This document shows positions 8,715-29,492 of a DNA stretch of 29,492 bases, in pieces; position 1 is the first letter of the stretch; every line of letters begins with the position of its first letter. The position numbers and the translations under genes are program-made. This DNA comes from a virus, in IMG/VR virus record IMGVR_UViG_3300042466_001324, positions 1 through 29,492 of that record, one strand, 5' to 3'. The notes beneath the pieces are model-generated. The model ran no database searches and was not told the origin of the DNA. It saw nothing but the letters and a program-made list of their open reading frames with translations.

Positions 8715-8720
8715 ATATTG

Positions 8721-8727: not shown

Positions 8728-8756
8728 CTTCAATATCAACTATATTTAATTCAACT

Positions 8757-10882: not shown

Positions 10883-10895
10883 ACCAATTTTCGAT

Positions 10896-10902: not shown

Positions 10903-10924
10903 ATGTAATGGTTAATCCAAACAT

Positions 10925-12457
10925 ATGAAAAAAATAGAACAAAAAATTAAAGAGTTAGAAACAGTAATCCTTGGAAATCACGTATTAAAGGAACAAAGAT
11001 TGTTAATAACAGAAATGAAGAAAATAGGAATTGAGAAATTACCTTATTCTTACTCAGCCTTAAAACAATTCATCGACCCCGAAACGATGGAATTTCACTA
11101 CAACAAACATTACAAGGGATACGTGGATAAATTGAACGATGCTCTTTCAAAGAAAAAATATGGGGATTTAGAGTTAATTCAAATAATTAAAACAATCGAT
11201 AGATTTGATAAGACAATTCGAAATAATGCCGGTGGTGCTTTCAACCACGCATTGTTTTGGAATATGTTATCTCCAAAACCAACAAAACTTAAAGGGGAAC
11301 TTTATCAAAAGATTATTAAACAATACGGTAGTTTTCCAACATTCAAAAAAGAATTTGAAAAAATTGCTAAAGAACGTTTTGGTTCAGGATGGGTGTGGTT
11401 AATAATCACCTCAAAAAATACTTTAAAAATAATGTCGACCCCTAATCAAGATAATCCATTAATGAATGTTATTGAAGGTGGTGGGTTTCCAATCTTAGGA
11501 TTAGATTTATGGGAACACGCATATTATCTTAAGTATAGAAACAAACGAGATGAATATATTGCAAATTTTTGGAAAGTTGTGAATTGGGATTTTGTTTCTA
11601 AATTATATGACATGAAAGTTGAAACAAAACTTCTTGAGACGAATAAAATGAAAGAGATACTAAGTGAAGGAAAATCAGAAATGTGTTCATCATCTGAAAA
11701 TGAATTTTATAGAACTTTATTCAATACTAATCAAGATGTTAAATGGATTTACATGAATGGTATAAATAAAATAATGAGAGATGTATTTTCTGAAAATTTT
11801 GTAGAAAATCCGGGTAATAACCAGATGTCAGGTGTTTATGAGTTAGAAGGACCGGGTCGGTCAGTAATCAATAAATTAAACACAAATTACACATCATTCT
11901 GTATTTTATTAAATGATGTAAATCAAGTTATTAAAAAATTAACAAAAAAACCACCAATTGATTTTAGAAATAAGAACACAGAAGAACAAAAGAAAGAGGC
12001 TTCAAGATTTATTTCGGCAATTAATCATTATAAATTTCAAATATTTAATCGAGAAAGTTCAACATTTCAAAACCTATTAAGAGTTTTAATTGAAAAGAAC
12101 GCCGCAGGTTCAAAACGTGAAGAAATAACTGCGTCAATATTAAGAAGATATTTTGGTAAAGATGTTAAAATTGAAATCGTTGGAGAACTTGGAAGTAAAA
12201 AAGATGCTATTAGTGGTGTTGATTTAGAGATAACCAAAGATGGTGTAACCAAAACCGCACAAGTTAAACCTTTCCGAGAAAAAAAGATAACAGATGATGG
12301 TATCTTACTTGAAGGAACCGCAAGTGTTAAGATTTATAAAACCGATTTAATGATTTTTCAAAAAGGGAAAAATGTTTTAGTTTTTGATAAAAAACCAATA
12401 ATAGTTAATGGTAATTTCCTTTTTCCATTAGACTCATTATTATATGATATACAATAA
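10925..12457 (+). CDS. Fe/Mn superoxide dismutase fused to PD-(D/E)xK nuclease-like domain
   Basis: A 510-aa two-domain protein. Residues about 39-230 are a full Fe/Mn superoxide dismutase, which converts superoxide to hydrogen peroxide and oxygen. All four metal ligands are visible: H58 in MEFHYNKHY, H108 in GGAFNHALFW, and D194 and H198 in GLDLWEHAYY. Residues 1-38 are a helical extension. Residues about 250-510 are unrelated. Within them, a helix with E399/E400, GVDLEI with D433, and AQVK with Q446 and K448 form the D...QxK signature of Mrr-like PD-(D/E)xK nucleases. The join contains Met242, which opens MKEILSEG and resembles the leaders of other genes here, as if a separate gene had been fused. 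The frame is continuous. SOD function is well supported, nuclease activity is inferred. Confidence 0.88.
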   Translation: MKKIEQKIKELETVILGNHVLKEQRLLITEMKKIGIEKLPYSYSALKQFIDPETMEFHYNKHYKGYVDKLNDALSKKKYGDLELIQIIKTIDRFDKTIRNNAGGAFNHALFWNMLSPKPTKLKGELYQKIIKQYGSFPTFKKEFEKIAKERFGSGWVWLIITSKNTLKIMSTPNQDNPLMNVIEGGGFPILGLDLWEHAYYLKYRNKRDEYIANFWKVVNWDFVSKLYDMKVETKLLETNKMKEILSEGKSEMCSSSENEFYRTLFNTNQDVKWIYMNGINKIMRDVFSENFVENPGNNQMSGVYELEGPGRSVINKLNTNYTSFCILLNDVNQVIKKLTKKPPIDFRNKNTEEQKKEASRFISAINHYKFQIFNRESSTFQNLLRVLIEKNAAGSKREEITASILRRYFGKDVKIEIVGELGSKKDAISGVDLEITKDGVTKTAQVKPFREKKITDDGILLEGTASVKIYKTDLMIFQKGKNVLVFDKKPIIVNGNFLFPLDSLLYDIQ

Positions 12458-12469
12458 CGTTTAACAATA

Positions 12470-12476
12470 TATTTAT
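12470..12476 (+). promoter_or_regulatory. TATTTAT box upstream of gp13-like gene
   Basis: The plus strand reads CAATATATTTATAGTTATG; the box ends 4 nt before the start codon. The 10-mer ATATATTTAT is shared exactly with the regions before the tube gene and the BppU-like gene. At this distance it could act as a promoter for a leaderless message or as a translation-start element. Confidence 0.35.
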
Positions 12477-12480
12477 AGTT

Positions 12481-13608
12481 ATGGCAGTTATACCGGAACC
12501 AGAAAGAAGTAAAATTTATACGAGAGTCAAACATCAATTAGGGGCGCCACTTAGAAGTGTGGAACTTGAAGATGAAATGATGGACTCGTTAATGGAATTA
12601 TCTATAGGTGACTATGAAGAATATGTTCTTCAATGGTTAATAGATAGTCAATGGGTTAATTTAGTTAACCTAAACATGAATGAGAAATCAGTTGCGAAAG
12701 CGTTGATTACTCGAACAATGGATTTTGAACAACAATTTAGTTATTCATATTCAAAAATTGTAGGTCTTCAAACAGAAGGTCCATGGGTTTTGAAAAAAGA
12801 TTATTTCATCTTAAGTGCAAATACTCAAACATACGAAATCCCTGCAGGTCGTGAGGTTAATGAATTATTATGGTTTAGTGATAGACCATGGAATGCATTT
12901 GGATTAGGGGCTTCTGCCGGTGGGTTTGGTGCTGGTTTGGGTCTTGGTGCTAGTGAAGCAGGATTCGCTCAAATGGGAAATCAAGGTTCTTACTTTATGA
13001 TGTCAGGTTTTGATTATCTAATAAGAATGCAAGAGGCAAATGTCTTGAGTAGAATTTTAGGTGGTTCACTTACATATAGAATCACCGGATTACCTGATGG
13101 TAAGAAAAATATCCATTTATACAATACACCGGGAGGAAGATTTAATTGGAATAACATTAACGGTTATGTGGGTAAAGCAGTGTGGTATTGGTATTATGAT
13201 GTATCACCTGATAATAGAGCGGATTGTTTAAAAAATAATCCTGACGTTATTAAATTACCTTCGGATGTTCCAATGGATAATTTATCTTGGGAAGATTTAA
13301 ACATACCGGGTCAACAATGGGTTAGAAGATGGTTCACAGCATATTGTAAAGAAACGTTGGCAAGAGTTAGAGGAAAATATAGTGGTAATCTTAAAACTCC
13401 GGATAGTGAATTAACTATGGATTATCAATCATTATCAACTGAGGCTAAAGACGAGAAATCTAAATTACTCGAAGAACTTACAGGAGCGGAAGGATGGTTA
13501 ACAAGATTAAGACCAGAAAAAGTGATGGAACGAGAGGCGTTAATTGCAGAAAACTTAAACAAACAAATGAAATTTAGAGCAATGCCTCGACAAATATACG
13601 TAATATAA
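12481..13608 (+). CDS. Probable neck protein (gp13-like)
   Basis: A 375-aa protein. Its N-terminus (KIYTRVKHQLGAPLRSVELEDEMMDSLM) matches the start of phage neck proteins that begin with a small helical domain and 'LG.P...VEL.DE....' pattern. The C-terminal half has WVRRWFTAYCKETLARVRGKY, then KTPDSELTMDYQSLSTEAKDEKSKLLEEL, which parallels the end of T4-like gp13 proteins (helix ending in K-G, then 'L.M..Q.L..EA..E...L'). gp13 helps close the head and joins the tail. A Gly/Ala-rich stretch at residues 138-170 is an unusual insertion. The small structural gene that follows is 1 nt away, so the two are co-transcribed. Moderate confidence; it is at least a virion structural protein. Confidence 0.6.
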   Translation: MAVIPEPERSKIYTRVKHQLGAPLRSVELEDEMMDSLMELSIGDYEEYVLQWLIDSQWVNLVNLNMNEKSVAKALITRTMDFEQQFSYSYSKIVGLQTEGPWVLKKDYFILSANTQTYEIPAGREVNELLWFSDRPWNAFGLGASAGGFGAGLGLGASEAGFAQMGNQGSYFMMSGFDYLIRMQEANVLSRILGGSLTYRITGLPDGKKNIHLYNTPGGRFNWNNINGYVGKAVWYWYYDVSPDNRADCLKNNPDVIKLPSDVPMDNLSWEDLNIPGQQWVRRWFTAYCKETLARVRGKYSGNLKTPDSELTMDYQSLSTEAKDEKSKLLEELTGAEGWLTRLRPEKVMEREALIAENLNKQMKFRAMPRQIYVI

Positions 13609-17193: not shown

Positions 17194-18867
17194 TTATGAC
17201 TCTTTACGTAACTCTCCTCCGTAATGTTCGAATCTATCGTGTTCAGTTGGTGTTAAAAGTAATAAACCTGATGATAATTCTCCTTTTTTGGCCAATTGAT
17301 ACATATGACTCATCCATGTTTGTTCAAATGGGTGTGCCCATGTTGTGTCCAAAAACATTTTTTTATTTCCCGGTCTACTAACAATTTGAGGCCAGTTACA
17401 ATAATAAACTTCACCCGAGCCATATGGTAAACCTTTGTGAGATAAAATTGATGAGAATTTAGTTTTTGGAGCATTAGGGTCTAATCCAAGATGAGGTAAT
17501 GTTGGTTTTTCAGGCCAAAATTCTTCTCTAACTGATTGAGGTACGTTATACCAAGACCATTGAGTTCCGTTATCCCCATAAAACTCTGAATAATTAAGTT
17601 TTAAGAAGTCAAAATTTTCTTTCTGAATAATCTCTAATGACTTGGTGTATAAATTTGGAACATATCTATTAAAACCATTTCGGCAAACAGAACCTTCATT
17701 AGGGAAGAAAAACATATCATCTTCAAAAAATAAATAATAATCTAAATCGGTTGTTTCAAAATGTTCGGCAATCCATTGTCTACCACCACAAATCCCAAGA
17801 TTTTCTTTTTTTATGTGTTCAAACCCATGTTCTTCACATAGTTTCAAGTATTCCTCAGTCGTTGATAAATCAGTAGAATTATCCAACAAATACTTTTTAG
17901 TTTTTATTAAATAATCATTATCATATGATTCAAATGATTTGATTAAAGTTCTAAATTGATTTGGACTATTAAATGTTAACACATAAAGACCAACTTTATT
18001 TGTATCTAAATTATTTACCACACTAACTTTAGATTCATTTTTCGGAATTAATGTATCGTTTTTTAAATCCTCAAAAAATTTACCAACCAATCCATTAGAA
18101 TCTATCTCAAAATAATTAATCAAGTCTGAATGTTTATATGACATTATACTAAAGATTGATTCTTCAGTTCCCATATAACCTTCTCCAAGAGTTGATTTTA
18201 ATAACCCATAATAAATCGAATTAATATCCGCAATACTGTCTTTAGGTCCACCAAAAAATCCTCCTCGGGAAACTTTAGTAACTTTAGAACCTGCAATAGA
18301 ATTTAACTTATCATAATTAAATCCATGTATTTCTGTTTCCGCATCATAAGGAAAACTAATAAACGAAAATTTTGATATGTATTTCGATAACTTATCAAGA
18401 ACATTATCGTGAGTAAAATACCCCGGATGAACAGTGTTTGTTAAACCACCGTCAATCCAAAACATATATTTAGAATCAAACTTATCAAATATTTTGGCGT
18501 CGTGTAAAAGAAACACTTTTGACATAACCAATGGATTATAGTTTTCTAATTTTGCTTGAGTTGATTGTTCTAACCAACCCACTTGATTATACCAATTAGG
18601 GTTATTTCGTATGCCTTGGATAAGTGGGTTAAATTCTGAGTTAGAGAACCACTCTAAAGGTCTTTCAATAAATTGGGTGTTTGATTCATTCCTTTTTGTA
18701 AAAACAAATTCTCGAAGACTTTCATCCCCGAAAATTATCATATTTTCTTGAACATCTAATAGTTGTTCAAATTTATCCAAATAATGTTGGTAAGACCTTG
18801 ACCACCCTTCGGTCAAATCACTACGACCAATATCCCAAATACCGGTAACTAATGTAATATTACTCAT
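17194..18867 (-). CDS. Two-domain glycosyltransferase (HtrL/YibB-like plus GT2/GT-A-like)
   Basis: A 557-aa fusion. Residues 1 to about 285 are HtrL/YibB-like, with YMFWIDGGLTNT (134-145) and GGFFGG (202-207), the motifs of that family. Residues about 290-557 are a GT-A-like domain that opens VGLYVLTFNSPNQFRTLI and has the acidic metal-binding motif FFEDDMFF (EDD 382-384). Two catalytic halves on one chain could add two successive sugars. No membrane segment or signal peptide is seen, so it acts in the cytoplasm. Its start overlaps the next upstream gene by 8 nt. The donor and acceptor are unknown. HtrL/YibB assignment is by motif recall; the second domain could be assigned to other GT-A families. 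Confidence 0.8.
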   Translation of the reverse strand: MSNITLVTGIWDIGRSDLTEGWSRSYQHYLDKFEQLLDVQENMIIFGDESLREFVFTKRNESNTQFIERPLEWFSNSEFNPLIQGIRNNPNWYNQVGWLEQSTQAKLENYNPLVMSKVFLLHDAKIFDKFDSKYMFWIDGGLTNTVHPGYFTHDNVLDKLSKYISKFSFISFPYDAETEIHGFNYDKLNSIAGSKVTKVSRGGFFGGPKDSIADINSIYYGLLKSTLGEGYMGTEESIFSIMSYKHSDLINYFEIDSNGLVGKFFEDLKNDTLIPKNESKVSVVNNLDTNKVGLYVLTFNSPNQFRTLIKSFESYDNDYLIKTKKYLLDNSTDLSTTEEYLKLCEEHGFEHIKKENLGICGGRQWIAEHFETTDLDYYLFFEDDMFFFPNEGSVCRNGFNRYVPNLYTKSLEIIQKENFDFLKLNYSEFYGDNGTQWSWYNVPQSVREEFWPEKPTLPHLGLDPNAPKTKFSSILSHKGLPYGSGEVYYCNWPQIVSRPGNKKMFLDTTWAHPFEQTWMSHMYQLAKKGELSSGLLLLTPTEHDRFEHYGGELRKES

Positions 18868-19735
18868 TTATATTATTTAATTCTGTTAACATTTTATAAA
18901 AACTTTTGTTTTTTTGAAAAAATTCTTCACTTCCTTCTTTAAAATTATCGTGGTGCCACCAAATATCGAAGTTTAAAGTCTTAAACCATTCTTTATGATT
19001 TTGGTACATTAATGACATATAATGTTCCTCATAAAACAATCTTTTTTGTTCCGGTAAAATCAATTTAACATAGTCATCAAATTGTTTAACTACCTTATCC
19101 CACAACTCTGTTTTACCCCCAAAAAATCCGCCAATGACATGAACACTGTTGTCGTATGTTGTATAGTATTTAGGGTCCACAGTACCTTCCCAATAATTTC
19201 TTGAATTTTCTTTTGCCACCATTACAAACTTATTGTCGGAATATTCAATTAAATTATTTAAAAAATTATCATTAAATAATGATGATTCATAGTAAAATCT
19301 ATGACCTTGTCCTGACAAGTATTTATTTGGTATTAAGCCTGTATGAGATAAACCAGCATCGAACCAAAAATAATAATCATAACTTTTATCCTCATTCTTA
19401 AACCAAGAAAATTTAGAGTATTGAATTTCGTAACATCTATCAGATGTTTTAATACCTTCAACATCTTTAACACTATTAATCAACTCTTGATATTCATTTT
19501 GTGATAAATCAAATAAAACAAATTTTAATCTATCTTCAGAAATTTCATGATTTTTATAAAAAAACTCTTTTAAGTCTTCTAATTCTCTTTCAGAGGTGTA
19601 ACAGATAAAATCTGCTTGGGTCATTTTTAATAAAGACAATAAACTAAAACGATAGTGGTCTTTTCTCCCTGGCCTTCCACCAAGCTCAGAACCGTAAAGG
19701 TCTGAATAAATACTTGTTATAATCTTAACTCTCAT
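18860..19735 (-). CDS. HtrL/YibB-like glycosyltransferase
   Basis: A 291-aa single-domain relative of the N-terminal half of the neighbouring downstream gene. It has YYFWFDAGLSHTGLIP and VIGGFFGG, the same FW(I/F)D(G/A)GL and GGFFGG motifs. The two genes are probably old paralogues. The N-terminus reads MRVKIITSIYSDLYGSELGGR, a typical GT-A opening strand followed by a glycine-rich turn. It overlaps the GT25 gene by 11 nt and the two-domain gene by 8 nt, so all three are likely translated as a coupled series. Substrate not predictable. Confidence 0.75.
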   Translation of the reverse strand: MRVKIITSIYSDLYGSELGGRPGRKDHYRFSLLSLLKMTQADFICYTSERELEDLKEFFYKNHEISEDRLKFVLFDLSQNEYQELINSVKDVEGIKTSDRCYEIQYSKFSWFKNEDKSYDYYFWFDAGLSHTGLIPNKYLSGQGHRFYYESSLFNDNFLNNLIEYSDNKFVMVAKENSRNYWEGTVDPKYYTTYDNSVHVIGGFFGGKTELWDKVVKQFDDYVKLILPEQKRLFYEEHYMSLMYQNHKEWFKTLNFDIWWHHDNFKEGSEEFFQKNKSFYKMLTELNNINE

Positions 19736-20453
19736 TGTTGTTTCTTAATTCTAAACATTTATCATAATCTAAATATTTTCCATCTAATTTGTCCGGAAAA
19801 TAAACATTCCAATTATACGTCATAACATAATGATTTGAATCAAATGTTTTGTTAATATCCGAATAATCTCTTTTTTGAACAACTAACGGTAATTTAGCAG
19901 AGAAGGATTTCATATTTGGGTAAACCGCTCTATCTAAAAACTCATCAATTGGAACTTGTTTATGACTATTTTCAATAATCACATTGGTATCCCATTGAAC
20001 AATATATTCACACGCCTTTCTTGTTAAAATAAACCCTGAAGTACCAAAAATACCTCTGTGTTTGTCCGGGTCCTTTGGTGGTAATATTGTTAAATCAACT
20101 AACTCTTCGGAAAACTTACTAAGTGGTCTGTGAATTGATGGTGCAAAATGGAAAAAACTCCAATCATTATTACTCAACTCTTCTTCTATTAAAGGGATTA
20201 ATTTTTTTGCGTACGGCATAAAAAAGATATCGTCTTCAAATACCATGGCATAATCATAACCTCTTTCTAAAATAATTTTAGCAACTTCTTGGTGAGAATA
20301 GGCACATCCTTCATAACTGTTTGTATCAACCGCATTGAATCTTTCAAACGTCCAACCCATATAGTCAAACTCTTTTGTAACCGCCTCTAATCTATCAGGT
20401 CGTCTTTCAAGATTAATTACAAATTTAGGTATTTCATTAAAATTAATTTTCAT
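19725..20453 (-). CDS. Family 25 glycosyltransferase (LPS-type)
   Basis: A 242-aa enzyme of the GT25 family, best known from lipooligosaccharide galactosyltransferases. The diagnostic motifs are FVINLERRPDRLE (11-23), the metal-binding VFEDDIFF (EDD 73-75) and GTSGFILTRKACEYI. The length is usual for the family. It most likely transfers galactose or a related sugar from a nucleotide donor. It overlaps both neighbours by 11 nt. In bacterial GT25 enzymes the acceptor is a lipid-linked oligosaccharide, while some eukaryotic relatives modify protein hydroxylysine, so both glycan and protein acceptors are possible here. Confidence 0.9.
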   Translation of the reverse strand: MKINFNEIPKFVINLERRPDRLEAVTKEFDYMGWTFERFNAVDTNSYEGCAYSHQEVAKIILERGYDYAMVFEDDIFFMPYAKKLIPLIEEELSNNDWSFFHFAPSIHRPLSKFSEELVDLTILPPKDPDKHRGIFGTSGFILTRKACEYIVQWDTNVIIENSHKQVPIDEFLDRAVYPNMKSFSAKLPLVVQKRDYSDINKTFDSNHYVMTYNWNVYFPDKLDGKYLDYDKCLELRNNNES

Positions 20454-21210
20454 ATATCAAATTTGTTTTATTATCATATCCTCTTCTGTGCGCAAAAATT
20501 ACTGAATTTAATTCGATTGCCTTTTGAAGGTTTCTATTAACATCGGTCCAATACCCAAAAATATCAATATCTTGGGTTGGACAATTATATCTTGATGATA
20601 GGATTGATAATACACTTTGGTCGTGTCTATGATTATCTTCAAAACCATCAACACAACCTTCAATTTGAGAATAATCCCAACCTTCGGTGATAATATGACT
20701 GTATTTACCATCACTTTTAAACCCAACTAATCCTGACCAAAGTTGATTATCCATTAGTTCTTCTTCAGTTGCATTCATTACCTCAACACATCTCTTGTGT
20801 GTATAATTTTTATTTAAGTGAATGTCACCAACTAAAAAGATATCTTCAGATTCAATAACATTAAAAATTGGTTCCAAACTTCTTAAGGCACAAGCACCGG
20901 CATCTAACCATAAAACATTTTTAGATAAACTCATAGAATGAAACAAAGTATACATTTTTAAAAAATGACATTTTGTTTTTATTGACGATATCCCTTCATA
21001 GATTTGAAAATCTTTTACGATATCAACAATCATTATTTTTTTTAACGATTTCAATCGATTAATTTCTGTTTGGTCTAAACCAAAATCATAAACCACAATC
21101 ATATCAACTAACTCAAAACTATCTTTATGGATACTATTAATTAGAGTTAGTAATGATTCAAAATAAGGACTATTCGCCCCTGTTATAACAATATTATTAT
21201 ACATTTTCAT
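20443..21210 (-). CDS. GT8-like/DUF1647-like putative glycosyltransferase
   Basis: A 255-aa protein starting NIVITGANSPYFESLLTLINSIH, the opening of GT-A folds that bind a nucleotide sugar. VLWLDAGACALRSLEPIF supplies a W-x-D-x-G motif resembling the metal-binding loop of GT8 and DUF1647 proteins. It overlaps the fucosyltransferase-like gene by 14 nt, or by 8 nt if Met3 (21204) is used. It overlaps the GT25 gene by 11 nt. No membrane segment is present. Family placement is uncertain between GT8-like and HtrL-like folds. Confidence 0.65.
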   Translation of the reverse strand: MKMYNNIVITGANSPYFESLLTLINSIHKDSFELVDMIVVYDFGLDQTEINRLKSLKKIMIVDIVKDFQIYEGISSIKTKCHFLKMYTLFHSMSLSKNVLWLDAGACALRSLEPIFNVIESEDIFLVGDIHLNKNYTHKRCVEVMNATEEELMDNQLWSGLVGFKSDGKYSHIITEGWDYSQIEGCVDGFEDNHRHDQSVLSILSSRYNCPTQDIDIFGYWTDVNRNLQKAIELNSVIFAHRRGYDNKTNLIYEN

Positions 21211-22012
21211 TTAAATAAGTTTGGATTATTTTTTCAGGGAACATATACTCTTTTGCTAATTCAAAGTTTTTCCTAACTGATTCTATTTTAGACATATAGT
21301 ATTCACTATTTAATTTTTCTAAAATAGACGGTAATTCTTCATCACCTTCAAAATATATGATACCATTTTCATCAAAATAATTAGAAGTGTCTCGTGACCC
21401 AACATATACAGGAATTGTTCCGGTTAAGAAACAATCCAAAATCTTTTCAGTAAAGTACCCACTCTCAACACAATTTTCAATCACAATTGAAAACATATAA
21501 TCTTTTAACGCATCAATTTTAAATTCAATTTCTTTTTCACAACCTGACCCATAAAAATCAACTCTACCATCATCTTTTAATCTGTCATAAACTCTAAACC
21601 TCATTCTATGGTATGCGTTCCAATTTTTCCAAGAAAAAAGAGAACTAACCACTTTAGATTTTTCATGGATATTAATATCCTCTTCTCTCATCCAAGTTCC
21701 ACCATGTGGGATATACACAGCATTTTCTGCTTGTGGTATTACATTTTTATGATGAGTGAAAATATATTTAAAATTTTCTTTATTCTTGATGATGTTAACA
21801 TAGTTTTCACCATTAATAATTGAAGGTTCAATTAACCAAGCACAATTTATTTTTGTTTCATCTATTGGTTGAGTAAAACACATACGGTCTACATAAACAC
21901 CAATATCATATGTATCAGGTTCTCGTTCCCATCCGGTTTTAGGGTCAATGTATCTGGACAAACCAGGTTGTCCAACTAAGTTTTCGTCAATTAGTTTTGT
22001 TGTTTTAGACAT
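21197..22012 (-). CDS. GT10-like fucosyltransferase
   Basis: A 271-aa protein whose C-terminal half matches the alpha-1,3/4-fucosyltransferase catalytic domain: FSIVIENCVESGYFTEK (174-190) followed by ILDCFLTGTIPVYVGS (191-206) and an NYFDENGIIYF stretch. In GT10 enzymes the E-N and TEK residues bind GDP-fucose. The N-terminal half contains CAWLIEPS and YIPHGGTWM, typical of the acceptor-binding half of GT-B folds. It therefore probably transfers fucose or another GDP-linked deoxy sugar to the glycan. It lies 13 nt after the aminotransferase gene. GDP-fucose synthesis genes are not in the window. Confidence 0.8.
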   Translation of the reverse strand: MSKTTKLIDENLVGQPGLSRYIDPKTGWEREPDTYDIGVYVDRMCFTQPIDETKINCAWLIEPSIINGENYVNIIKNKENFKYIFTHHKNVIPQAENAVYIPHGGTWMREEDINIHEKSKVVSSLFSWKNWNAYHRMRFRVYDRLKDDGRVDFYGSGCEKEIEFKIDALKDYMFSIVIENCVESGYFTEKILDCFLTGTIPVYVGSRDTSNYFDENGIIYFEGDEELPSILEKLNSEYYMSKIESVRKNFELAKEYMFPEKIIQTYLNENV

Positions 22013-22025
22013 TTTAATTTTATTA

Positions 22026-23135
22026 TTAATTTATTGTATTTTTATCTTTAAGGTAGTTTATAATTTTTCCGGCAATAAAATCAACCTGACTATCGGTTAA
22101 TTGAGGATATGATGGTAATATAAGACACTGTTCACTTAACATAACAGAGTTTGTATCCTCGTTTGGAATATGGGAAATATAATCGTGTTTTTTAATTTCG
22201 TAAAACATAGGTCTTGTATCAATACCTACATGAAACAAATAGAGTTCTAAATCTTTTTTCTGATTTAAAGTAAATTCGTTAAATCTTAACCCAAACATCC
22301 ATTCAGAGTGTTCCGTTTCCGAATCTATTTTTTGAAATGAAATTCCTTCCACACCTTCAAAAATGGATTTATAACGATTAAATATTTTATGTTTTCTTTC
22401 TTTAATCTCATCTAACGATTCTAACTGACCATACAAAATTGCCGCTTGAATATTAGTCATTCTATAATTATAACCTAAAACATCGTGAATGAATTTTTCA
22501 TTTGATTGTCCCTGAGATTTAACTTTATTAATGTATTCAAATACATCATCGTCATTTGTTATAAATGCACCACCCTCACCTGAAGTTATAGTTTTATTAC
22601 CGAAGAAAGATATCGATGAGGCAAATGATTCGGTACCTGTATATTTATCCCCATATTTACCCAAAAACCCTTCACAATTATCTTCTAAAATAACGGTGTC
22701 AGGAAATTCAATTTTTAATTTAGGTACGTTTACAATATTACCAATATTATGAACCACTAATATTGCGGTGTTTTCGTCAACCAAAGATTTTAATTTAGAT
22801 GTGTCAAAATTCCAAGTTTCCAAATCAGAATCAATCGGTATCAATTCATAATTTTTATCAAATAAAAAAGAATTCCACGCAGCTACATATACATTGTTTG
22901 GTACAATAATTTTATTAATGTGAGGGTACTTATATTTTAAGGCAATTGCCAATAAATGTGTTGCAGTTGTACCATTATTAGTCAATATTAATCGTTTACA
23001 CCCAAGAATTTCTTTTAATTTGTTTTTCGCTAAATCTAAGTATTCACCTTGAGATGAAACCCATCCGGAGTCAATTGCTTTATGTGCGTATTTTAAATTT
23101 TTTTGATTAAAATACGGTTGATAAATTGGTATCAT
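22026..23135 (-). CDS. DegT/DnrJ/EryC1 family sugar aminotransferase
   Basis: A 369-aa PLP enzyme. The pyridoxal-binding lysine is K181 in SFFGNKTITSGEGG, with LTNNGTTATHLLAIAL (51-66) for cofactor phosphate binding and EDNCEGFLGKY (151-161) at the ring. GYNYRMTNIQAAI is the family's C-terminal signature. These enzymes add an amino group to a 4-keto (or 3-keto) nucleotide sugar, as in perosamine or bacillosamine synthesis. A GNAT acetyltransferase in the same operon could acylate that amine. No 4,6-dehydratase is seen here, so the keto-sugar must come from elsewhere. The start overlaps the FkbM gene stop (ATGA). Confidence 0.92.
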   Translation of the reverse strand: MIPIYQPYFNQKNLKYAHKAIDSGWVSSQGEYLDLAKNKLKEILGCKRLILTNNGTTATHLLAIALKYKYPHINKIIVPNNVYVAAWNSFLFDKNYELIPIDSDLETWNFDTSKLKSLVDENTAILVVHNIGNIVNVPKLKIEFPDTVILEDNCEGFLGKYGDKYTGTESFASSISFFGNKTITSGEGGAFITNDDDVFEYINKVKSQGQSNEKFIHDVLGYNYRMTNIQAAILYGQLESLDEIKERKHKIFNRYKSIFEGVEGISFQKIDSETEHSEWMFGLRFNEFTLNQKKDLELYLFHVGIDTRPMFYEIKKHDYISHIPNEDTNSVMLSEQCLILPSYPQLTDSQVDFIAGKIINYLKDKNTIN

Positions 23136-23773
23136 ATTTTTATAAAGTAAGCGTTATTATCTTTAGTTAAATCAAATTTGTAATTTAATTCATCTAAAAA
23201 TGATTTTATGTTGTCTAACCCAACATGAGGATATTCAACACACAAAATTTGAGGTAAAAATTTTGAGTTTTTCATCCCTTCTAAAACTTCTATTTCGTAA
23301 CCTTCAACATCTAAGACAAATAAATCGATAGTTTGGTCATGAAAGTTTTCATTCATTAATTTATCTATAATATTATCATATCTCGTTGAAATAACATTAT
23401 ACTCTTCAAAATGACATCCTTCATGGTTTAATAAATCTTCGTGTGTCATTTTGTGTTTAAATGAACCATTACCAAACTTAGTCCCATGATATGGATGTAC
23501 GGCGTGTTTGAATTTTAAAGTTGTTTCTTCACTACCTAAACCCAAATTAAAATTGTGTGATTTAGTTCTATTTGATTTTAACATCTCAAAAATTGGTGGA
23601 GATGCTTCAATATTGATACAAGTCCACCCTAAATTTTCTTCAAAAAATAAAGTTGACGACTCCATTACACCATCAAATGCTCCACATTCAATACTAATCC
23701 CTTTTTCTTTATTTTGAAAATACCTCTCAAAAATAAACTTATCCTGTTCAGATTGTCCGTAAAATTTATACAT
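23132..23773 (-). CDS. FkbM-family methyltransferase
   Basis: A 213-aa SAM-dependent methyltransferase. SIECGAFDGVMESSTL is motif I, FDFVLDVEGYEIEVLEG-like DLFVLDVEGYEIEVLEG is the FkbM signature, and CINIEASPPIFEML binds the adenosine end. FkbM proteins O-methylate sugars or polyketides, so it may cap a glycan. The frame could open at 23857, but that would overlap the upstream gene by 92 nt. ATG 23773 (MYKFYGQSEQ) gives an 8-nt overlap like those elsewhere in the operon and starts right at the conserved 'YGQSEQDKFI', so it is preferred. This gene ends in TGA, the only TGA stop I found among the genes here. Confidence 0.9.
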   Translation of the reverse strand: MYKFYGQSEQDKFIFERYFQNKEKGISIECGAFDGVMESSTLFFEENLGWTCINIEASPPIFEMLKSNRTKSHNFNLGLGSEETTLKFKHAVHPYHGTKFGNGSFKHKMTHEDLLNHEGCHFEEYNVISTRYDNIIDKLMNENFHDQTIDLFVLDVEGYEIEVLEGMKNSKFLPQILCVEYPHVGLDNIKSFLDELNYKFDLTKDNNAYFIKI

Positions 23774-24587
23774 TTTGTATTTCTCTGATATAGTCATCAA
23801 AATTGATGAAAATTTGTTTATTATGCTCTGTTTGAAATTGATAAAAAATGTCCTCATTTACTAACGACAATAATTTATCCGTAAATAATGACATACAGAA
23901 AAAACCTCCTCCGCCCATCATTATTATTTTTTTTGAATTTAATATTAAAGTTAAATCATTAATTATATTTTCAAGGTTAATTCCTTCAGAGGAATAATCA
24001 TCTTTAGTTAAATCAATAATTTTATTTTTATCTATGTTTTTAATGTATTCATCATACAATGAATATACCATTTCATTACCAATAATTGAATACTCCCCGG
24101 TGTAGTTTACATTTTTTTCCCCAAGTAATATTATTTTTGAATCTATCGAATTTAAAGTATTAAAAAAAAATTCAGAATGTTGTTGAAAATTTGATAAATG
24201 GAAATTTCTTGATTTAGTAAATAATACAACATGATTTTTATATTCATCATTAATAGAATCATTAGAAAACTTTTTCTTAAAAATATTCTTTATTCTATCA
24301 TCAGTTAACATTTTATCGATGTAATCTCTATTAACTTCCCAAGTTTTTTCTGGATTAGTTTCACATTCTAAAACAACAAAATCACTCAAAATAAACTTAA
24401 CATAGTCGATACAAAATTTTTTATACGATTCACTTCCGTCCCTATACAAATTTAGATTAGTTTCATTAATCTTTATCTCTAAAACGTCTTCTTTGTTTAA
24501 ACGTAATAACATTTCTCCGCAAAAGAATGTTAAATCCCCTATACCGATATTTTTTAATTCATATTTATGTGTTATTGATTTTTCCAT
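23766..24587 (-). CDS. Putative GT-B-type glycosyltransferase
   Basis: A 273-aa protein. An early IGIGDLTFFCGEML segment resembles the glycine-rich donor loop that opens GT9-like enzymes, and KKIIMMGGGGFFCM (near residue 225) could be the C-terminal donor-site loop. Polysaccharide pyruvyltransferase-like folds share this look. It is Asn-, Lys- and Ile-rich, more extreme than its neighbours, and contains a run of phenylalanines encoded by nine consecutive Ts on its strand (24162-24170). The start is ATG 24587; a TTG at 24608 would extend it by seven residues across a T11 tract. Function is inferred from faint motifs and operon context. Confidence 0.45.
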   Translation of the reverse strand: MEKSITHKYELKNIGIGDLTFFCGEMLLRLNKEDVLEIKINETNLNLYRDGSESYKKFCIDYVKFILSDFVVLECETNPEKTWEVNRDYIDKMLTDDRIKNIFKKKFSNDSINDEYKNHVVLFTKSRNFHLSNFQQHSEFFFNTLNSIDSKIILLGEKNVNYTGEYSIIGNEMVYSLYDEYIKNIDKNKIIDLTKDDYSSEGINLENIINDLTLILNSKKIIMMGGGGFFCMSLFTDKLLSLVNEDIFYQFQTEHNKQIFINFDDYIREIQNV

Positions 24588-24608
24588 TTTAATAAAAAAA
24601 AAAATCAA

Positions 24609-24917
24609 TTAATATGTTTTATGTGCTCTCTGTAAAAATTTACCGTTATCTAAATCCTCACCATTTAATTTTGCTTCAATTATTTCAATAATTTTTGAGT
24701 CAACCTCATTTATTAATTGATTTCTTTGAACATTTAAGTCGCATGCCTTTTTTAATGTCTCCCAAAGTAAATTAGCCCCACTTTCGTCGTTAAAGTATTT
24801 TTCCTTATACTCTTCAAAAGTCATTCTTCTTATATCGTATAATAACTCCTGATTATCCCACATTTTCATGTCAACTGTTACTAATTTATCAATAACGTTT
24901 CCTAATGTATCTGCCAT
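24609..24917 (-). CDS. DUF4254-like small protein
   Basis: A 102-aa helical protein. It opens MADTLGNVIDKLVTVDMKMW and contains LNVQRNQLINEVD near the end, the pattern I associate with DUF4254, a family of Bacteroidota proteins often found beside glycosyltransferases. Full DUF4254 proteins are about twice as long, so this is a short version. Its function is unknown; a role in sugar or lipid-linked glycan synthesis is suggested only by neighbourhood. It sits 5 nt after the GNAT gene and 21 nt before the next gene start, with an 11-A tract between. Confidence 0.6.
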   Translation of the reverse strand: MADTLGNVIDKLVTVDMKMWDNQELLYDIRRMTFEEYKEKYFNDESGANLLWETLKKACDLNVQRNQLINEVDSKIIEIIEAKLNGEDLDNGKFLQRAHKTY

Positions 24918-24922
24918 AATTT

Positions 24923-25354
24923 TTATTTATTTAAGTTTTTATTTAATTTCATTATATGATAAGTAGGGTGAGTTTCAATAATATGAAATTCTTTTTTCAT
25001 ATAAACTGATATTGCAACATGATTATCAATATCAACCGACAATAAGATATCCGAATTAGAATTTAGTATCAAATCATCCATAATCTTACTCCCTATTTTT
25101 TTTCCGGTTTCTGTATCCCCAACCAAAATTCCTAACCATACAATATCGTCTTCAGTATCTAAATGACCATAACCAACACATTTATCACCATCATAGTATA
25201 GACAGGTATAAATGTGATTTTTAACAACTTTGTAAGGTCTTTTTGAAAAATATCTAAACTTGTTAGTCCCAATAGGATTATTTTTAATGAAGTCATCTAA
25301 ATCAATCAATGACGAATAATCTTTGTGATTTATAATTTTTTTAATCAAATCCAT
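24923..25354 (-). CDS. GNAT-family N-acetyltransferase
   Basis: A 143-aa enzyme. WLGILVGDTETGKKIGSKIM (about 73-92) contains the beta4 strand and the Q/RxxGxG/A-type acetyl-CoA pyrophosphate loop (here ETGKKIG). DILLSVDIDNHVAISVYMKK (about 102-121) is the following strand and the 'N..A...Y.K' helix of GNATs. It transfers an acyl group from acyl-CoA to an amine. In this operon, with a DegT-type aminotransferase, the likely acceptor is an amino sugar. It abuts the next upstream gene with no gap. Length is usual for the family. Confidence 0.85.
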   Translation of the reverse strand: MDLIKKIINHKDYSSLIDLDDFIKNNPIGTNKFRYFSKRPYKVVKNHIYTCLYYDGDKCVGYGHLDTEDDIVWLGILVGDTETGKKIGSKIMDDLILNSNSDILLSVDIDNHVAISVYMKKEFHIIETHPTYHIMKLNKNLNK

Positions 25355-26056
25355 TTATAAAGTTTTAATGTCGTGTTTATTAACGTATGGTGATATAAAT
25401 TGTCTATCACAATACATATGTGCAATAACGTTTTCATTATATTTTTTACACATCATCAAACTTAAAAAAGAACTACTAATAATATTAACCGATTTAGCGT
25501 TCTCAATAACCTTCAATAAACTAAACATCCCGTACTGTGGTTCAGCCGTAATGATAGGATAATCAGGTTTTAATAATTCTCTATTGATTTTTATGTTTTC
25601 TTCATCCTTTTCATGAACAAAATGATAATCATGAATTCCTTTACTAACAATTAATTCGTAGTAAACCTTTTCTTCTAATTCATAATCCCTTTCAATATAA
25701 AAATAATCTTGTTTAATTTTTGGGTCCATCCCAACAATTAAATAAAAAGAATCGTCAAAATATTTTTCATAACGATATCCCATATTATCGCAAAAATGGG
25801 AAGAAATAATCTTATCAAAATTTTCATTTTTAATAAAATGTTCCATTTCACCATCGTTTAACACACTTTTGACTTTAATCCTTGGGTTATCTCTAAACAT
25901 AAACACTACGTTATTATGGTAGTGATGTTTAGCCGCAATATGAATTTCGGAATTTGGGTTATCTTCTGCAATTTTACGTATCATACCGTTATGAACTACA
26001 GAGTCACCCATACCTAAATGGTGTTTCACAAATATTTTTAAAGGTTCCCCACTCAT
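25355..26056 (-). CDS. GT9-like putative glycosyltransferase (heptosyltransferase-like)
   Basis: A 233-aa protein. KIFVKHHLGMGDSVVHNGMIRKIAE (about 7-31) matches the opening GxGDxxxxxPxxRxL loop of GT9 heptosyltransferases, and SEIHIAAKHHYHNNVVFMF follows as in that family. The second half (DYPIITAEPQYGMFSLLKVIENAKSVNIISSSFLSLM) parallels the donor-binding half, where a Ser-rich loop contacts the nucleotide sugar. It is shorter than classic GT9 enzymes (about 330-350 aa), so it may be a reduced version or a distant relative. The gaps to its neighbours are zero and 2 nt. Confidence 0.6.
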   Translation of the reverse strand: MSGEPLKIFVKHHLGMGDSVVHNGMIRKIAEDNPNSEIHIAAKHHYHNNVVFMFRDNPRIKVKSVLNDGEMEHFIKNENFDKIISSHFCDNMGYRYEKYFDDSFYLIVGMDPKIKQDYFYIERDYELEEKVYYELIVSKGIHDYHFVHEKDEENIKINRELLKPDYPIITAEPQYGMFSLLKVIENAKSVNIISSSFLSLMMCKKYNENVIAHMYCDRQFISPYVNKHDIKTL

Positions 26057-26058
26057 AA

Positions 26059-27324
26059 TTAACTAACGTGATTATGAGTTATTCTTCCGGTAATTCTATC
26101 ACACCATCCTTTTGATTCTGAATAAGGCCATACAACCCAATAATCAGGTAATGCGTCTGTTTGGAACTCTCTCCAAATCTTACAATAACCATCAGGGTCT
26201 CTTAACATTCCCGCAATTTCTGCTTTGTCAGCATCTTTTCTAAATAAAGTTTCATCTTTATTATTGTGGAATGCAACCACCCAAAATTCATAATCTTTTT
26301 CAGGAACACTTGTATATCCAACATCAATACAATGTTTGAATACCATACAAAAACTATTTTTCCATTCTTCTTCGGTTTCAAAGTTATAAGGGTTTGGTGG
26401 ATATCCTTTGTCTAATGTATGTTTATCAATTGCTCTTTTTTCAAATAAAAGACCTGAATATTTTTCATACTCTTTTAATGTTCTAACAGGTCCAAATCCG
26501 TAAGGTCCGTCATGACCTTCTTGTTCCTCTCCATCCATACCAAATAATTTTCTATTTGTGTGATGAGAGTGTCTATTTTTTTCTCCCCATGTTTTATCAT
26601 CATCCCATTGTTTTGTTCTACCCTTACGAGTATATTCGTGAAACACAACAGGAAGATGTGGATGAAATAAATCATAACCCCAAGTGTATGCTCGTGCTGC
26701 AATTGAAATTTCTTCACCGTGGAAATAATATTCCGGATTATGTTGTACCTCAATTGAGAAAGCACCTAAAGTAAAACAAAAGTGTGCTGAGTAAAATCTT
26801 GCGGTCACAGGTTTTTTTAATTCTTTCCATCCCGGAATAGTTTCAGGTAAGAAGAAGACAGCTCCTTCAGGAATAAATCTATCAAAGACCATTCTCCATG
26901 GTTCATTAATTCTACTCTCCGGATAATTTTCGGGGTCAAAAGATGGGACGTAACCCGTAAGTAGAGGCTTTTCGTATCCATCCTTCTGTAACCCCTTAAT
27001 CATTTTTATTAAGATATCATCCCAATCTTTAACAAATCTCATATGAGAATCAATTTGAAGAGTATACGTTTCACCTTCATAAAGTTGTTGGGTTAGATTT
27101 CTTGCCCAACAAACACCTTTAGACTCTTCGTAAGGAATATCAAGTATTCTAAATCTTTTGTCTTTTCTGTAATCTTCTAATTTATCAAAACCATCTTCTT
27201 CACTGAATTGTCTTGCAATTCCAAATGTGATATTTTTAGGCTTCTTGGCGTTTGCCAACATATCTTTGATTGTTGGTTCTAATTGTGGGTCTCTATAGGA
27301 CGCGATTTGAACAAATATTTTCAT
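26059..27324 (-). CDS. GlcNAc-transferase-like glycosyltransferase (Skp1 GnT1-type)
   Basis: A 421-aa GT-A enzyme of the 'glycosyltransferase (GlcNAc)' family that includes the Dictyostelium Skp1 hydroxyproline GlcNAc-transferase. Motifs are IFVQIASYRDPQLEPTI (3-19), GVCWARNLTQQLYEGE (70-85), the metal-binding QIDSHMRF (90-97) and HGEEISIAARAYTWGYDLF, which recognises the donor. The known relatives attach N-acetylglucosamine directly to a protein. That is relevant because the neighbouring upstream gene encodes a Pro/Thr-rich protein. This is the first gene of the operon, 28 nt after the terminator hairpin. No promoter I would trust is visible; TATAAT occurs only 4 nt before the start codon. 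Confidence 0.85.
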   Translation of the reverse strand: MKIFVQIASYRDPQLEPTIKDMLANAKKPKNITFGIARQFSEEDGFDKLEDYRKDKRFRILDIPYEESKGVCWARNLTQQLYEGETYTLQIDSHMRFVKDWDDILIKMIKGLQKDGYEKPLLTGYVPSFDPENYPESRINEPWRMVFDRFIPEGAVFFLPETIPGWKELKKPVTARFYSAHFCFTLGAFSIEVQHNPEYYFHGEEISIAARAYTWGYDLFHPHLPVVFHEYTRKGRTKQWDDDKTWGEKNRHSHHTNRKLFGMDGEEQEGHDGPYGFGPVRTLKEYEKYSGLLFEKRAIDKHTLDKGYPPNPYNFETEEEWKNSFCMVFKHCIDVGYTSVPEKDYEFWVVAFHNNKDETLFRKDADKAEIAGMLRDPDGYCKIWREFQTDALPDYWVVWPYSESKGWCDRITGRITHNHVS

Positions 27325-27351
27325 GTATTATACGTTTTAGGTAAAAATAAA

Positions 27352-27377
27352 AAACCCTCGAGATAAGTCGAGGGTTT
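27352..27377 (-). terminator. Rho-independent terminator between mucin-like gene and glycosyltransferase operon
   Basis: A 10-bp perfect stem (27352-27361 with 27368-27377) and 6-nt loop, followed on the minus strand by a long T-rich run. It should end the transcript of the Pro/Thr-rich gene and insulate it from the operon. The rest of the 27325-27445 gap is A/T-rich with no gene. Confidence 0.9.
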
Positions 27378-27445
27378 ATTAAATTATATTTTATTTTTTT
27401 TATATTAGTTGTTGTTAACAAATAAATCGAAACTAAACACCATCA

Positions 27446-29492
27446 TTATGGTCTAGTTGGTGTTGGTGTTGGTGTTGGTGTTTCTCCACCAGCAGTTGGT
27501 GTTGGTGTTGGTGTTTCTCCACCAGCAGTTGGTGTTGGTGTTGGTGTTTCTCCTCCCGGTGTTGATGTTACTGTTGCGGTTACTGTTGGAGTAATACCTG
27601 TAACTTCAGGAGTATTACTTGGTGTTACACTAGGTGTTGGTGTTGGTGTCACATTAAAAGTTGAACCTGTCGTTTCACCTGTAAAATCATATTGTGTCGA
27701 CCCTGTCACATCAAATGTAACTCCAGTGAATGAACTTACTTGTGTTAAATCATTATAATCGTAGTCTACAAATACTTGAGTATAACCACTTGTTTGTCCT
27801 GATAAAATTTCTACAGAACTATTAATTACTAATGGTGGTCCTGTAATAGTCCCTAATACATTAGTGAAATTAATAGTAATATCATCAGTTACTACTTGAT
27901 TAGCAACTGCCTGATATCCTGCACCTACTGAACCTTCAAAATAAAATCCCTCTAATTGAATTATAATAGGTGTTGCACAACCTAATGGGTTTACTGATGT
28001 AACTTCACCTACACCTCCGGTTACCTGATATGTTGCAGTTCCATTAGAATAATATCCATTAGAAGCTGTTGTTGATAACAATGTGTTAGTGTACAATATC
28101 TCACCAAGATTTGGTCCTATACCCGCAGCAATCGCTCCATAAAGAGTTATTGGTGAATTATCAAAATTATCACAAGCCGTTGCCGGAACAGTTGCATCAT
28201 AACCTAATGTATAAGTGTAGTAACCAATTGTTTGAGTCGGTGTTTGAGTTAAGGTTGGTGTTTGTGTTTGAGTCTGAGTTAATGTTGGTGTATTAGTTGG
28301 GGTTTGAGTTTGAGTTTGAGTTACAGTTTGAGTTGGTGTTAATGTAACACAAATACTAAATCCTCCAACAATAGAACCGTCAGATGATAACTGAACTATA
28401 TTTTGACTATTATTATAATAACCTGTCATATCAATTGTAGTTGGACCTGCTAATACATTATAGAATATGGTATTTTCATCAAAATTAACTTTATCACCAT
28501 AAATCGTAATTGTTGAATTGTATTGACCACAAGCTTCGTCATATGTTGAACCCGGATAAACCGTAAATGCAAACCTAGTTTGAGTTGGTGTTGGTGTTGG
28601 GGTTGTTGATGCGGTGTTTGTCGGTGTTACTGACGCTGTATTTGTTGGTGTTGACGTATTTGTTGGTGTTGGGGTTGAAGTCTCCGTATTAGTTGGTGTT
28701 TGAGTTAAAGTTTGAGTCGGTGTTTGAGTAGTTGTTGGTGTGTTAGTTGGTGTTTGAGTTAAAGTTTGTGTTGGTGTTAAAGTGATACAATTTGAAAACC
28801 CTCCGCTTTCAACACCATTATTTAATTGTACTACAATTTGTGAGTAGTTATAATAACCTGTTAATCCTGTTGTGTCCGGACCTACGATATTATTGTAAAA
28901 TACTGTGTTATTATCAAATAATGAAGAGTCACCATAAATAACTACTGTTGAATTATATTGACCACACGCAGCATCATAAGTAGACCCCGGATAAACTGTA
29001 AATGGGAATCTATTCGCTGTTGGTGTATTAGTTGGTGTTGTAGTAGGTGTTGGAGTATTTGATGCAGTAACTGACGGTGTTGGACTTTGAGTCGTCGTAT
29101 TTGTCGGTGTTTGCGTTAAAGTCGGTGTTGGCGTTAAGGTAATTACCCCAACACAACCATTCGGGTCAGATGAAGTAATTTCACCTAATCCACCTGTTAT
29201 TAAGAACCATGAAATTCCATTAGAATAATAACCATTACTAGCTGGTGTAGATAACAATGTGTCATCATATAAAAACTCACCTACATTAGGACCTATACCA
29301 CCAGAAACAGCACCATAGTAATTTGATGGTGAATTTGAGTCATTACAAGATTCTTGGATTGTTGCCCCGTAACCTAACGAGTAACTATAATATGAGATAG
29401 TTTGTGTTGGTGATGCAGTATTTGTCGGTGTATTAGTTGGTGATGCAGTATTTGTAGGCGTTTGTGTTGGTGTCTCTGTATTTGTTGGAGTT
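27446..29492 (-). CDS. Mucin-like Pro/Thr-rich modular surface protein (5' end beyond window)
   Basis: At least 682 codons, open to the right edge in the same frame (the TTG at 29257 is not a real start). The protein alternates globular modules with linkers made almost only of Thr, Pro, Gln, Asn and Ser (TPTQTPTNT-type). Module type A begins YY.Y.LGY.AT and has GIGPN.GE.LY..TLLST.ASNGYYSNG. Type B begins FTVYPGSTYD.ACGQYNST and ends GGFS.C.TLTPT. The order from the N-terminus is A-B-B-A, then a different beta-rich domain, then a C-terminal tail of GGETPTPTPTA repeats ending TPTRP. Such linkers are rigid, extended and prone to O-glycosylation. No cell-wall anchor or membrane segment is visible at the C-terminus, so a virion fibre or adhesin is likely. 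A glycosyltransferase operon follows. Confidence 0.85.
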   Translation of the reverse strand, partial: TPTNTETPTQTPTNTASPTNTPTNTASPTQTISYYSYSLGYGATIQESCNDSNSPSNYYGAVSGGIGPNVGEFLYDDTLLSTPASNGYYSNGISWFLITGGLGEITSSDPNGCVGVITLTPTPTLTQTPTNTTTQSPTPSVTASNTPTPTTTPTNTPTANRFPFTVYPGSTYDAACGQYNSTVVIYGDSSLFDNNTVFYNNIVGPDTTGLTGYYNYSQIVVQLNNGVESGGFSNCITLTPTQTLTQTPTNTPTTTQTPTQTLTQTPTNTETSTPTPTNTSTPTNTASVTPTNTASTTPTPTPTQTRFAFTVYPGSTYDEACGQYNSTITIYGDKVNFDENTIFYNVLAGPTTIDMTGYYNNSQNIVQLSSDGSIVGGFSICVTLTPTQTVTQTQTQTPTNTPTLTQTQTQTPTLTQTPTQTIGYYTYTLGYDATVPATACDNFDNSPITLYGAIAAGIGPNLGEILYTNTLLSTTASNGYYSNGTATYQVTGGVGEVTSVNPLGCATPIIIQLEGFYFEGSVGAGYQAVANQVVTDDITINFTNVLGTITGPPLVINSSVEILSGQTSGYTQVFVDYDYNDLTQVSSFTGVTFDVTGSTQYDFTGETTGSTFNVTPTPTPSVTPSNTPEVTGITPTVTATVTSTPGGETPTPTPTAGGETPTPTPTAGGETPTPTPTPTRP
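27465..27563 (-). repeat. Tandem 33-bp repeats encoding the C-terminal Pro/Thr tail
   Basis: Two identical 33-bp units (27465-27497 and 27498-27530) and a third diverged one encode GGETPTPTPTA. Each unit contains GGTGTT triplets, so slipped-strand copy-number change is likely. Confidence 0.9.
27960..28235 (-). repeat. Type A module, second copy
   Basis: Encodes YYTYTLGYDATVPATACDN through the GVGEVTSVNPLGC end. Homologous to 29135-29400 (both contain the SNGYYSNG and GIGPN motifs). Approximate boundaries. Pro/Thr linkers flank the type A copies. Confidence 0.8.
28340..28580 (-). repeat. Type B module, second copy
   Basis: Encodes FAFTVYPGSTYDEACGQ through GGFSICVTL. Homologous to 28785-29018. 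The Pro/Thr linkers at about 28236-28339 and 28581-28784 separate it from its neighbours. Confidence 0.85.
28785..29018 (-). repeat. Type B module, first copy
   Basis: Encodes FPFTVYPGSTYDAACGQ through GGFSNCITL. The two B copies share YNST..IYGD and TGYYN.SQ..VQL. Approximate boundaries. Confidence 0.85.
29135..29400 (-). repeat. Type A module, first copy
   Basis: Encodes SYYSYSLGYGATIQESCND through GGLGEITSSDPNGC. A Pro/Thr/Asn/Ser linker lies before it (29401-29492, cut by the edge) and after it (about 29019-29134). More modules probably continue outside the window. Confidence 0.8.

Follow-up and report, generated by a model that had tools for sequence, protein, structure and literature searches.

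We describe a locus in the virus record IMGVR_UViG_3300042466_001324 (29,492 bases; this whole stretch is called the window below) that is likely to encode a mucin-type O-glycosylation system belonging to a large phage of freshwater type. The locus comprises a gene for a threonine- and proline-rich (T/P-rich) protein, followed on the minus strand by twelve open reading frames (ORFs) for enzymes that run from position 27324 down to 17194. Since T/P-rich proteins are found beside the virus's own sugar-adding enzymes, one of which is like the enzymes that initiate mucin glycosylation in animals, it is probable that the virus coats parts of its particle with sugar. In profile searches the window gave a match to a T4-type baseplate protein, a tail tube and a family-B DNA polymerase, i.e. 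this is a contractile-tailed phage. The records L002 and L005 constitute the twin record of the window, and L005 is 99.96% identical to it across 13,431 bases.

The T/P-rich ORF lies at 27446-29491 on the minus strand. It has 681 codons plus a stop and its 5′ end is open at the end of the contig, so that the window holds the 3′ part of the gene; the full-length protein in L005 is 823 aa. Beta-type modules are joined by linkers of T, P, N and Q, and the protein matches phrog_15511 (function not assigned). Stretches above the T/P threshold total 273 aa, with 38% T and 18% P, and constitute the kind of long acceptor region found in mucins. We propose that this is an acceptor, and the first-pass annotation of the DNA, which had described a T/P-rich surface-type protein with long linkers, is borne out in this respect. 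The stretches use mixed codons for threonine (ACA 58, ACT 31, ACG 9 and ACC 5) and for proline (CCA 35, CCG 10 and CCT 4), which rules out a single pure DNA repeat, although the region does contain short imperfect tandem repeats. Upstream on the same strand in L005 the row continues with T/P-rich ORFs of 811 and 187 aa, and with an ORF of 692 aa that has no such tracts. In related loci the first ORF of this upstream row bears a T/P stalk. That of locus L009 has a C-terminal Laminin_G_3 lectin domain (E 2e-16) in addition, and resembles a PHROG annotated as 'virion structural protein', the match spanning both stalk and lectin. No tblastn match was found in annotated phages for either the T/P-rich protein of the window or a 690-aa ORF upstream in L005.

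The first enzyme ORF (26059-27324, minus strand, 421 aa) is the proposed initiator. Its score for PF11397 is 221.9 bits (cut-off 21), and we take this Pfam family to be glycosyltransferase family 60 (GT60) of CAZy. An AlphaFold2 model calculated from 66 sequences has a mean predicted local distance difference test score (pLDDT) of 93.4. On alignment of the top 1000 PDB chains from Foldseek using VIA-align, the 29 best entries were all polypeptide N-acetylgalactosaminyltransferases (ppGalNAc-transferases) with Z of 19.1-22.3, and the next entry had Z of 16.4. The predicted model is thus a GT-A fold nearest to that of GT27. The identity in these structural alignments is about 12-14%, and a search of PDB sequences with the GT60 alignment profile gave no relative and one match at chance level. 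The enzyme has a DxH motif. D92 and H94 are invariant in the 66 phage and bacterial sequences and S93 is present in at least 90% of them; E205 and H229 are likewise invariant, and H229 may be the metal-binding 'C-His'. The extracts of a large GT-A survey state that DxD is replaced by DxH in both GT27 and GT60, and that the two families share O-glycosylation of polypeptide Ser/Thr (PMC7185993). From extracts of another, the GT60 enzyme TcOGNT1 forms N-acetylglucosamine (GlcNAc)-alpha-Thr on the mucin-like proteins of Trypanosoma cruzi (PMC9472816). The earlier placement of this enzyme in a family whose characterised members put GlcNAc onto protein agrees with the family match, the motif and the predicted fold. 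As a separate observation, a search of BFVD with the model found predicted fold relatives in Megaviridae samples and in Pandoravirus salinus.

GT60 genes of phages are closely linked to genes for T/P-rich proteins. A GT60 query of viral contigs found 493 relatives, of which the best 80 were kept. The near set comprises 83 loci, including three found through the T/P query itself, and the far set comprises 80 more distant phage loci. Of the near loci, 81 have an upstream gene, and in 79 of these the immediately preceding gene on the same strand encodes a T/P-rich protein, compared with 39 of 980 control genes; for the far set the values are 43/80 and 47/1150. These adjacency counts, and those for bacteria below, are based on a simple custom ORF caller (i.e. 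not a trained gene finder), and the significance of the linkage is overstated because related loci are counted as independent. Of the 80 loci retrieved with the GT60 query alone, 78 contain at least one T/P-rich ORF, and the remaining two loci begin just 77 and 158 bases upstream of GT60. With a stricter definition of the tract, and on any strand, one lies within 600 bases of GT60 in 72/78 near and 43/78 far loci, compared with 32/636 and 39/632 random intervals taken within the same loci. T/P adjacency is found in 40 of the 133 rows of a quick GT60 tree (FastTree, with long branches and 39 of its 130 forks open), and requires at least 12 changes on it, so that adjacency has been gained or lost many times.

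The association extends to whole records, in which T-P-T-x-T-P-T was searched as a coding pattern alongside the search for GT60. In the first round the pattern was present in 14 of 14 GT60-positive records (XacN1, RAS14, CM1 and 11 IMG/VR records of 128-350 kb), with 16 to 90 matches each, and in none of ten GT60-negative named jumbo phages that served as controls, being relatives by the XacN1 polymerase. The second round used 45 IMG/VR records. Here 17 of 18 GT60-positive records had the pattern, compared with none of 18 records whose T4-type polymerase is unrelated (three of them larger than 300 kb, most being fragments). Combining both rounds, the pattern is found in 31/32 GT60-positive and 0/28 unrelated GT60-negative records, with nine ambiguous fragments set apart. 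The polymerase of the window does not find that of XacN1 in a tblastn search, so at least two unlike phage lineages exhibit the GT60-T/P pattern. Genomic co-occurrence had been put forward in advance by the first-pass annotation as a check on its proposal; both 31/32 versus 0/28 here and 79/81 versus 39/980 for the near loci are strongly in favour.

Bacterial GT60 genes are also enriched in T/P-rich neighbours. The direct upstream gene on the same strand is T/P-rich in 3/67 bacterial loci compared with 6/795 controls, and using the stricter tract a T/P-rich ORF lies within 600 bases of GT60 on any strand in 9/71 loci compared with 2/616 random intervals. The bacterial GT60s that are nearest to the clade of the window (support 88, not starred) are in a Saprospiraceae and a Bacteroidia metagenome-assembled genome (L291 and L301). 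In both loci HtrL adjoins GT60, and the T/P-rich protein lies divergently. The T/P-rich proteins of L291, L292, L301 and L337 begin with what are presumably twin-arginine-like signals, recognised from the motif rather than with prediction software. Such signals are consistent with proteins that are modified in the cytoplasm and then exported, and suggest that GT60 marks cytoplasmic glycosylation of T/P-rich proteins prior to export, phages using the same chemistry for particles that are assembled in the cytoplasm. One further bacterial locus (L323) has two consecutive GT60-like ORFs, at 9962-11536 and 11684-13255.

At the other end of the enzyme genes lies a constant partner of GT60 that we term HtrL557 (17194-18867, minus strand), a member of the HtrL_YibB family. 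It is present in 80/83 near, 63/80 far and 17/80 bacterial GT60 loci, and among 50,697 annotated phage records it matches exactly the same three records as GT60, among them the Stenotrophomonas phages RAS14 and CM1. In five bacterial loci (L317, L319, L320, L343 and L346) GT60 and HtrL557 are contained within one ORF. The model of HtrL557 (pLDDT 92.5) has two GT-A-like domains. Residues 1-268 resemble the GT6 blood-group transferases (Z about 13-14), while residues 286-551 resemble B4GALNT1 and POMGNT1 (Z 14-15), and Foldseek matches to the whole chain are two-domain transferases such as LH3, chondroitin polymerase and LARGE1. From the predicted structure HtrL557 may be a bifunctional extender, adding sugars to that placed by the initiator.

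The region between GT60 and HtrL557 is highly variable. In 78 loci there are 47 distinct spans; these show 15 different gene orders and draw on 38 gene families, of which 20 are confined to a single span. The commonest content (30 of the 47 spans) is a GT25 glycosyltransferase and a 291-aa protein alone. In the window this core comprises the GT25 (19725-20453, 242 aa) and the 291-aa protein (18860-19735), both on the minus strand; the latter has no family above cut-off, and its positional counterpart in L009, an ORF of 308 aa, gives a sub-threshold match to HtrL_YibB. The window carries eight genes beyond the core, all on the minus strand. Reading downstream from GT60 these are a 233-aa protein with no confident family (25355-26056), a GNAT acetyltransferase of 143 aa (24923-25354), a 102-aa protein with no confident family (24609-24917), a 280-aa protein listed with a TTG start and having no family (23766-24608), an FkbM-type methyltransferase of 241 aa (23132-23857), a DegT/DnrJ/EryC1 aminotransferase of 369 aa (22026-23135), a GT10 (fucosyltransferase-type) enzyme of 271 aa (21197-22012) and a 255-aa protein that is weakly GT8-like below cut-off (20443-21210). 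The 102-aa ORF also gave weak Pfam and PHROG matches to tail sheath, below the Pfam cut-off, which are probably due to chance. The GT10 has relatives in 11 of the 83 near loci. The other seven cassette genes have relatives in just two or three near loci, two of which are the twin record, so a fixed enzyme set is not supported; most of the middle genes form a cassette found in almost no related locus. Cassettes elsewhere contain GT10, GT_PLOD, RXYLT1_C and Glyco_transf_7C domains, and methyltransferases. Given a constant pair and variable middle genes, the inner part of the glycan may be constant and its outer part variable.

All twelve enzyme ORFs overlap, abut or lie no more than 13 bases apart, the largest overlap being 92 bases (23766-23857). 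The first-pass annotation had counted eleven genes, with about seven glycosyltransferases together with an aminotransferase, GNAT and FkbM enzymes. The last three are confirmed by Pfam, and the families above cut-off are the PF11397 GlcNAc transferase, GT25, GT10, DegT aminotransferase, FkbM methyltransferase, GNAT and HtrL_YibB. The number of glycosyltransferases is confirmed only in part; three are assigned by curated family and HtrL557 by predicted structure, leaving 20443-21210 with its GT8-like match below cut-off.

A strong intrinsic terminator-like hairpin with a T run is situated between the T/P-rich gene and GT60 (27352-27377, minus strand). Hairpins of this type, whose stems show paired changes, recur in 72 of 120 loci in which the gap is less than 500 bases, and 600 shuffles gave none. 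The 72 positive loci are, as listed, all members of the near set; the other 48 loci are more distant and have no such hairpin. Judged by eye, it is present in 44 of 46 distinct upstream sequences. The hairpin is missing from L051 and L057, and these same two are the near loci whose direct upstream gene is not T/P-rich. The conservation of the terminator indicates that the acceptor gene and the enzyme genes are probably separate transcription units in the lineage of the window. The earlier description of the enzymes as the protein's own operon is therefore not sustained. Separate units would be appropriate if the structural protein is made in abundance and the enzymes in small amounts. A scan for promoters gave 85 sites where 77 were expected, and was not used.

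We propose the following pathway. In the cytoplasm of the host the GT60-type enzyme would transfer an N-acetylhexosamine from a UDP-sugar to threonine within the T/P-rich linkers of phage proteins. By analogy with the characterised enzymes this first sugar would most likely be alpha-GlcNAc. It would be extended by HtrL557, and further sugars would be added and decorated by GT25, the 291-aa protein and the cassette (i.e. GT10, DegT aminotransferase, GNAT, FkbM methyltransferase and others). Swapping of cassettes would give related phages different glycans. The acceptors would consist of folded modules alternating with sugar-coated stalks, and are probably tail-associated adhesins, in which the coat might stiffen and protect the stalks and vary the surface of the virion. 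The earlier proposal that the operon decorates this particular T/P-rich protein has good support as regards GT60 and the class of T/P-rich proteins, and is unproven for the protein of the window itself: the data tie GT60 and HtrL557 to the class, and all twelve enzymes may act on the window's protein.

A number of observations weigh against this proposal. The T/P-rich gene is directly upstream in only 31/61, 13/42, 5/21 and 2/5 viral GT60 clusters at 90, 80, 70 and 60% identity respectively, in none of the 15 tree rows of the XacN1-like group, and 62 of 71 bacterial GT60 loci have no T/P-rich neighbour. One GT60-positive record, a 94-kb fragment, lacks the tract, and tracts are present in four of nine fragments that belong to the polymerase lineage of the window and lack GT60, though the gene could be located past the fragment ends. 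The whole records are not independent, since several of the positives are near-copies. Moreover GT60 was present in only 10 of 120 stretches drawn by the T/P pattern, and in 4 of 48 T/P whole records tested, nine of ten known positives being outside these 48. T/P tracts are therefore not specific; they are common in phages without GT60 and do not predict it. The match to a virion structural PHROG is that of a gene beside the T/P-rich gene of the window, and runs across a compositionally biased stretch, so that virion location is indirect. Lastly, XacN1 is the closest to experimental support, with at least two virion glycoproteins reported for this cultured phage, and in the extracts of the report these are not named (PMC5852040).

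The frequency of T/P tracts in GT60-less phages, and the loss of adjacency in part of the GT60 tree, would be expected if the linkers were plain flexible spacers and GT60 modified some other virion or host protein, its linkage being a result of hitch-hiking in a conserved gene order. We consider this unlikely. The co-occurrence in whole records persists even in the XacN1-like group where there is no adjacency, it extends to phages with DNA polymerases that give no match to one another, and bacteria likewise show enriched adjacency. It could also be that the enzymes remodel a surface polysaccharide of the host (for example to change a receptor and exclude other phages), with the T/P-rich gene a mere neighbour. 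GT25, GT10, DegT, FkbM, GNAT and HtrL_YibB are usual in gene sets for lipopolysaccharide and capsule, going by the Pfam descriptions and general knowledge, and variable cassettes between conserved ends recall O-antigen loci. Yet all twelve ORFs were free of membrane-like segments in a hydropathy scan, which is what a cytoplasmic target would lead one to expect, and their Pfam, PHROG and NCBIfam matches include no flippase, polymerase or lipid-carrier transferase family, so this is not a locus of Wzx/Wzy type. Nor does polysaccharide remodelling predict the tie between GT60 and T/P-rich proteins in phages and bacteria, or the GT27-like fold, and we regard it as quite unlikely. Glycosylation of modified bases in the phage DNA is less probable still, and to our minds improbable. 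Such glycosylation by phage enzymes is established (discussed in the extracts of PMC12619734), and HtrL557 has a weak PHROG match to beta-glucosyl-hydroxymethylcytosine alpha-glucosyltransferase (E 8e-4). However, the solved folds nearest to that of the first enzyme are polypeptide transferases, the characterised members of its family act on polypeptides in the extracts cited above, and the co-occurrence with T/P-rich proteins would be left unexplained.

Returning to the mucin-type system, we can extend the proposal in a more tentative form, to which we give somewhat less than even credence. Several lineages of large phages might run a complete mucin-type pathway, having a transferase related in fold to animal mucin initiators, a constant two-domain extender, a cassette setting the glycotype of each phage and many T/P stalks per particle. 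A bacterial system for surface glycoproteins, of which the nearest enzymes lie beside T/P-rich Bacteroidota proteins with Tat signals, would perhaps have been taken over to make a brush on tail adhesins, with diversification like that of O-antigens. Few examples are known of phage enzymes that glycosylate the virion. If our proposal is correct, a conserved initiator-extender pair linked to T/P-rich proteins in unrelated large phages would make virion glycosylation a widespread and predictable trait, and the genome sequence would reveal whether a phage is glycosylated, the sites concerned and the cassette used. This bears on how phages vary the surface that faces hosts, grazers or immune systems, and would provide soluble bacterial and viral relatives of the mucin-initiating enzymes for structural study and for use as tools.

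We note some other features of the window. A tail sheath protein (2340-5552, minus strand) is unusually long at 1070 aa, and sheath families match only its last ~230 residues. A 510-aa protein (10925-12454, plus strand) has iron/manganese superoxide dismutase domains, with both Pfam parts at residues 37-226, and ~280 residues beyond these that have no family. A SET-domain protein (8709-9122, plus strand; E 5e-15) is followed directly by an SNF2-type helicase (9125-10879, plus strand). Two small adjoining ORFs on the minus strand (7412-7813 and 7813-8202) share nearly identical first 17 residues (MEYIITESKLFNAIYQY), as if by tandem duplication.

Both the initiation of mucin glycosylation by protist GT60 enzymes and the glycosylation of phage virions are known. 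Searches of the open-licence PubMed Central library, which did not extend to subscription journals or preprints, gave no description of the two combined in a phage that has T/P-rich acceptors and exchangeable cassettes, and no paper in which such an acceptor is paired with GT60. The moraphages are freshwater jumbo phages, mostly with predicted Bacteroidota hosts, in which four core orthogroups are putative glycosyltransferases; the extracts of that study offer modification of DNA, serotype or virion in general terms, with no mention of mucin, threonine or proline (PMC12619734). In mycobacteriophages, as proposed here, phage-encoded transferases modify virion proteins, but the glycans are described as lying on the C-termini of the capsid and tail-tube proteins, and T/P-rich multi-domain acceptors are not mentioned in the extracts, which cite Freeman et al. 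(2023). The protist alpha-GlcNAc-transferases of GT60, such as TcOGNT1 of T. cruzi, share with the phage enzyme a PF11397-type sequence, the DxH motif and, in the extracts, proposed T-rich acceptors. They are membrane enzymes of the eukaryotic Golgi, whereas the phage enzyme is predicted to be soluble and is known from its sequence and a model. The GT27 ppGalNAc-transferases that initiate animal mucins have the closest solved folds to the model and the same DxH motif, differing in the low identity given above.

A further comparison is with the cultured phage XacN1. Its ORF334 is 45.5% identical to the GT60 of the window over 98%, and it also has a homologue of HtrL557. On examination of the ORFs at the pattern sites, T/P tracts were found in at least 15 (ORF174, 180, 190, 232-237, 325, 350, 369, 370, 372 and 384). 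ORF369, 370 and 372 adjoin the genes for the sheath and a sheath stabiliser, and ORF350 adjoins a gene annotated as a structural protein; four neighbouring ORFs, including the sheath, had no T/P tracts on the same check. XacN1 differs from the window in that GT60 lies away from the T/P genes, and in the extracts of the report its authors draw no connection between ORF334 and the T/P tracts (PMC5852040). It resembles the window in its GT60 and HtrL557 homologues and T/P tracts, together with the virion glycoproteins reported in the same extracts, and the pathway proposed here offers a mechanistic reading of that old report.

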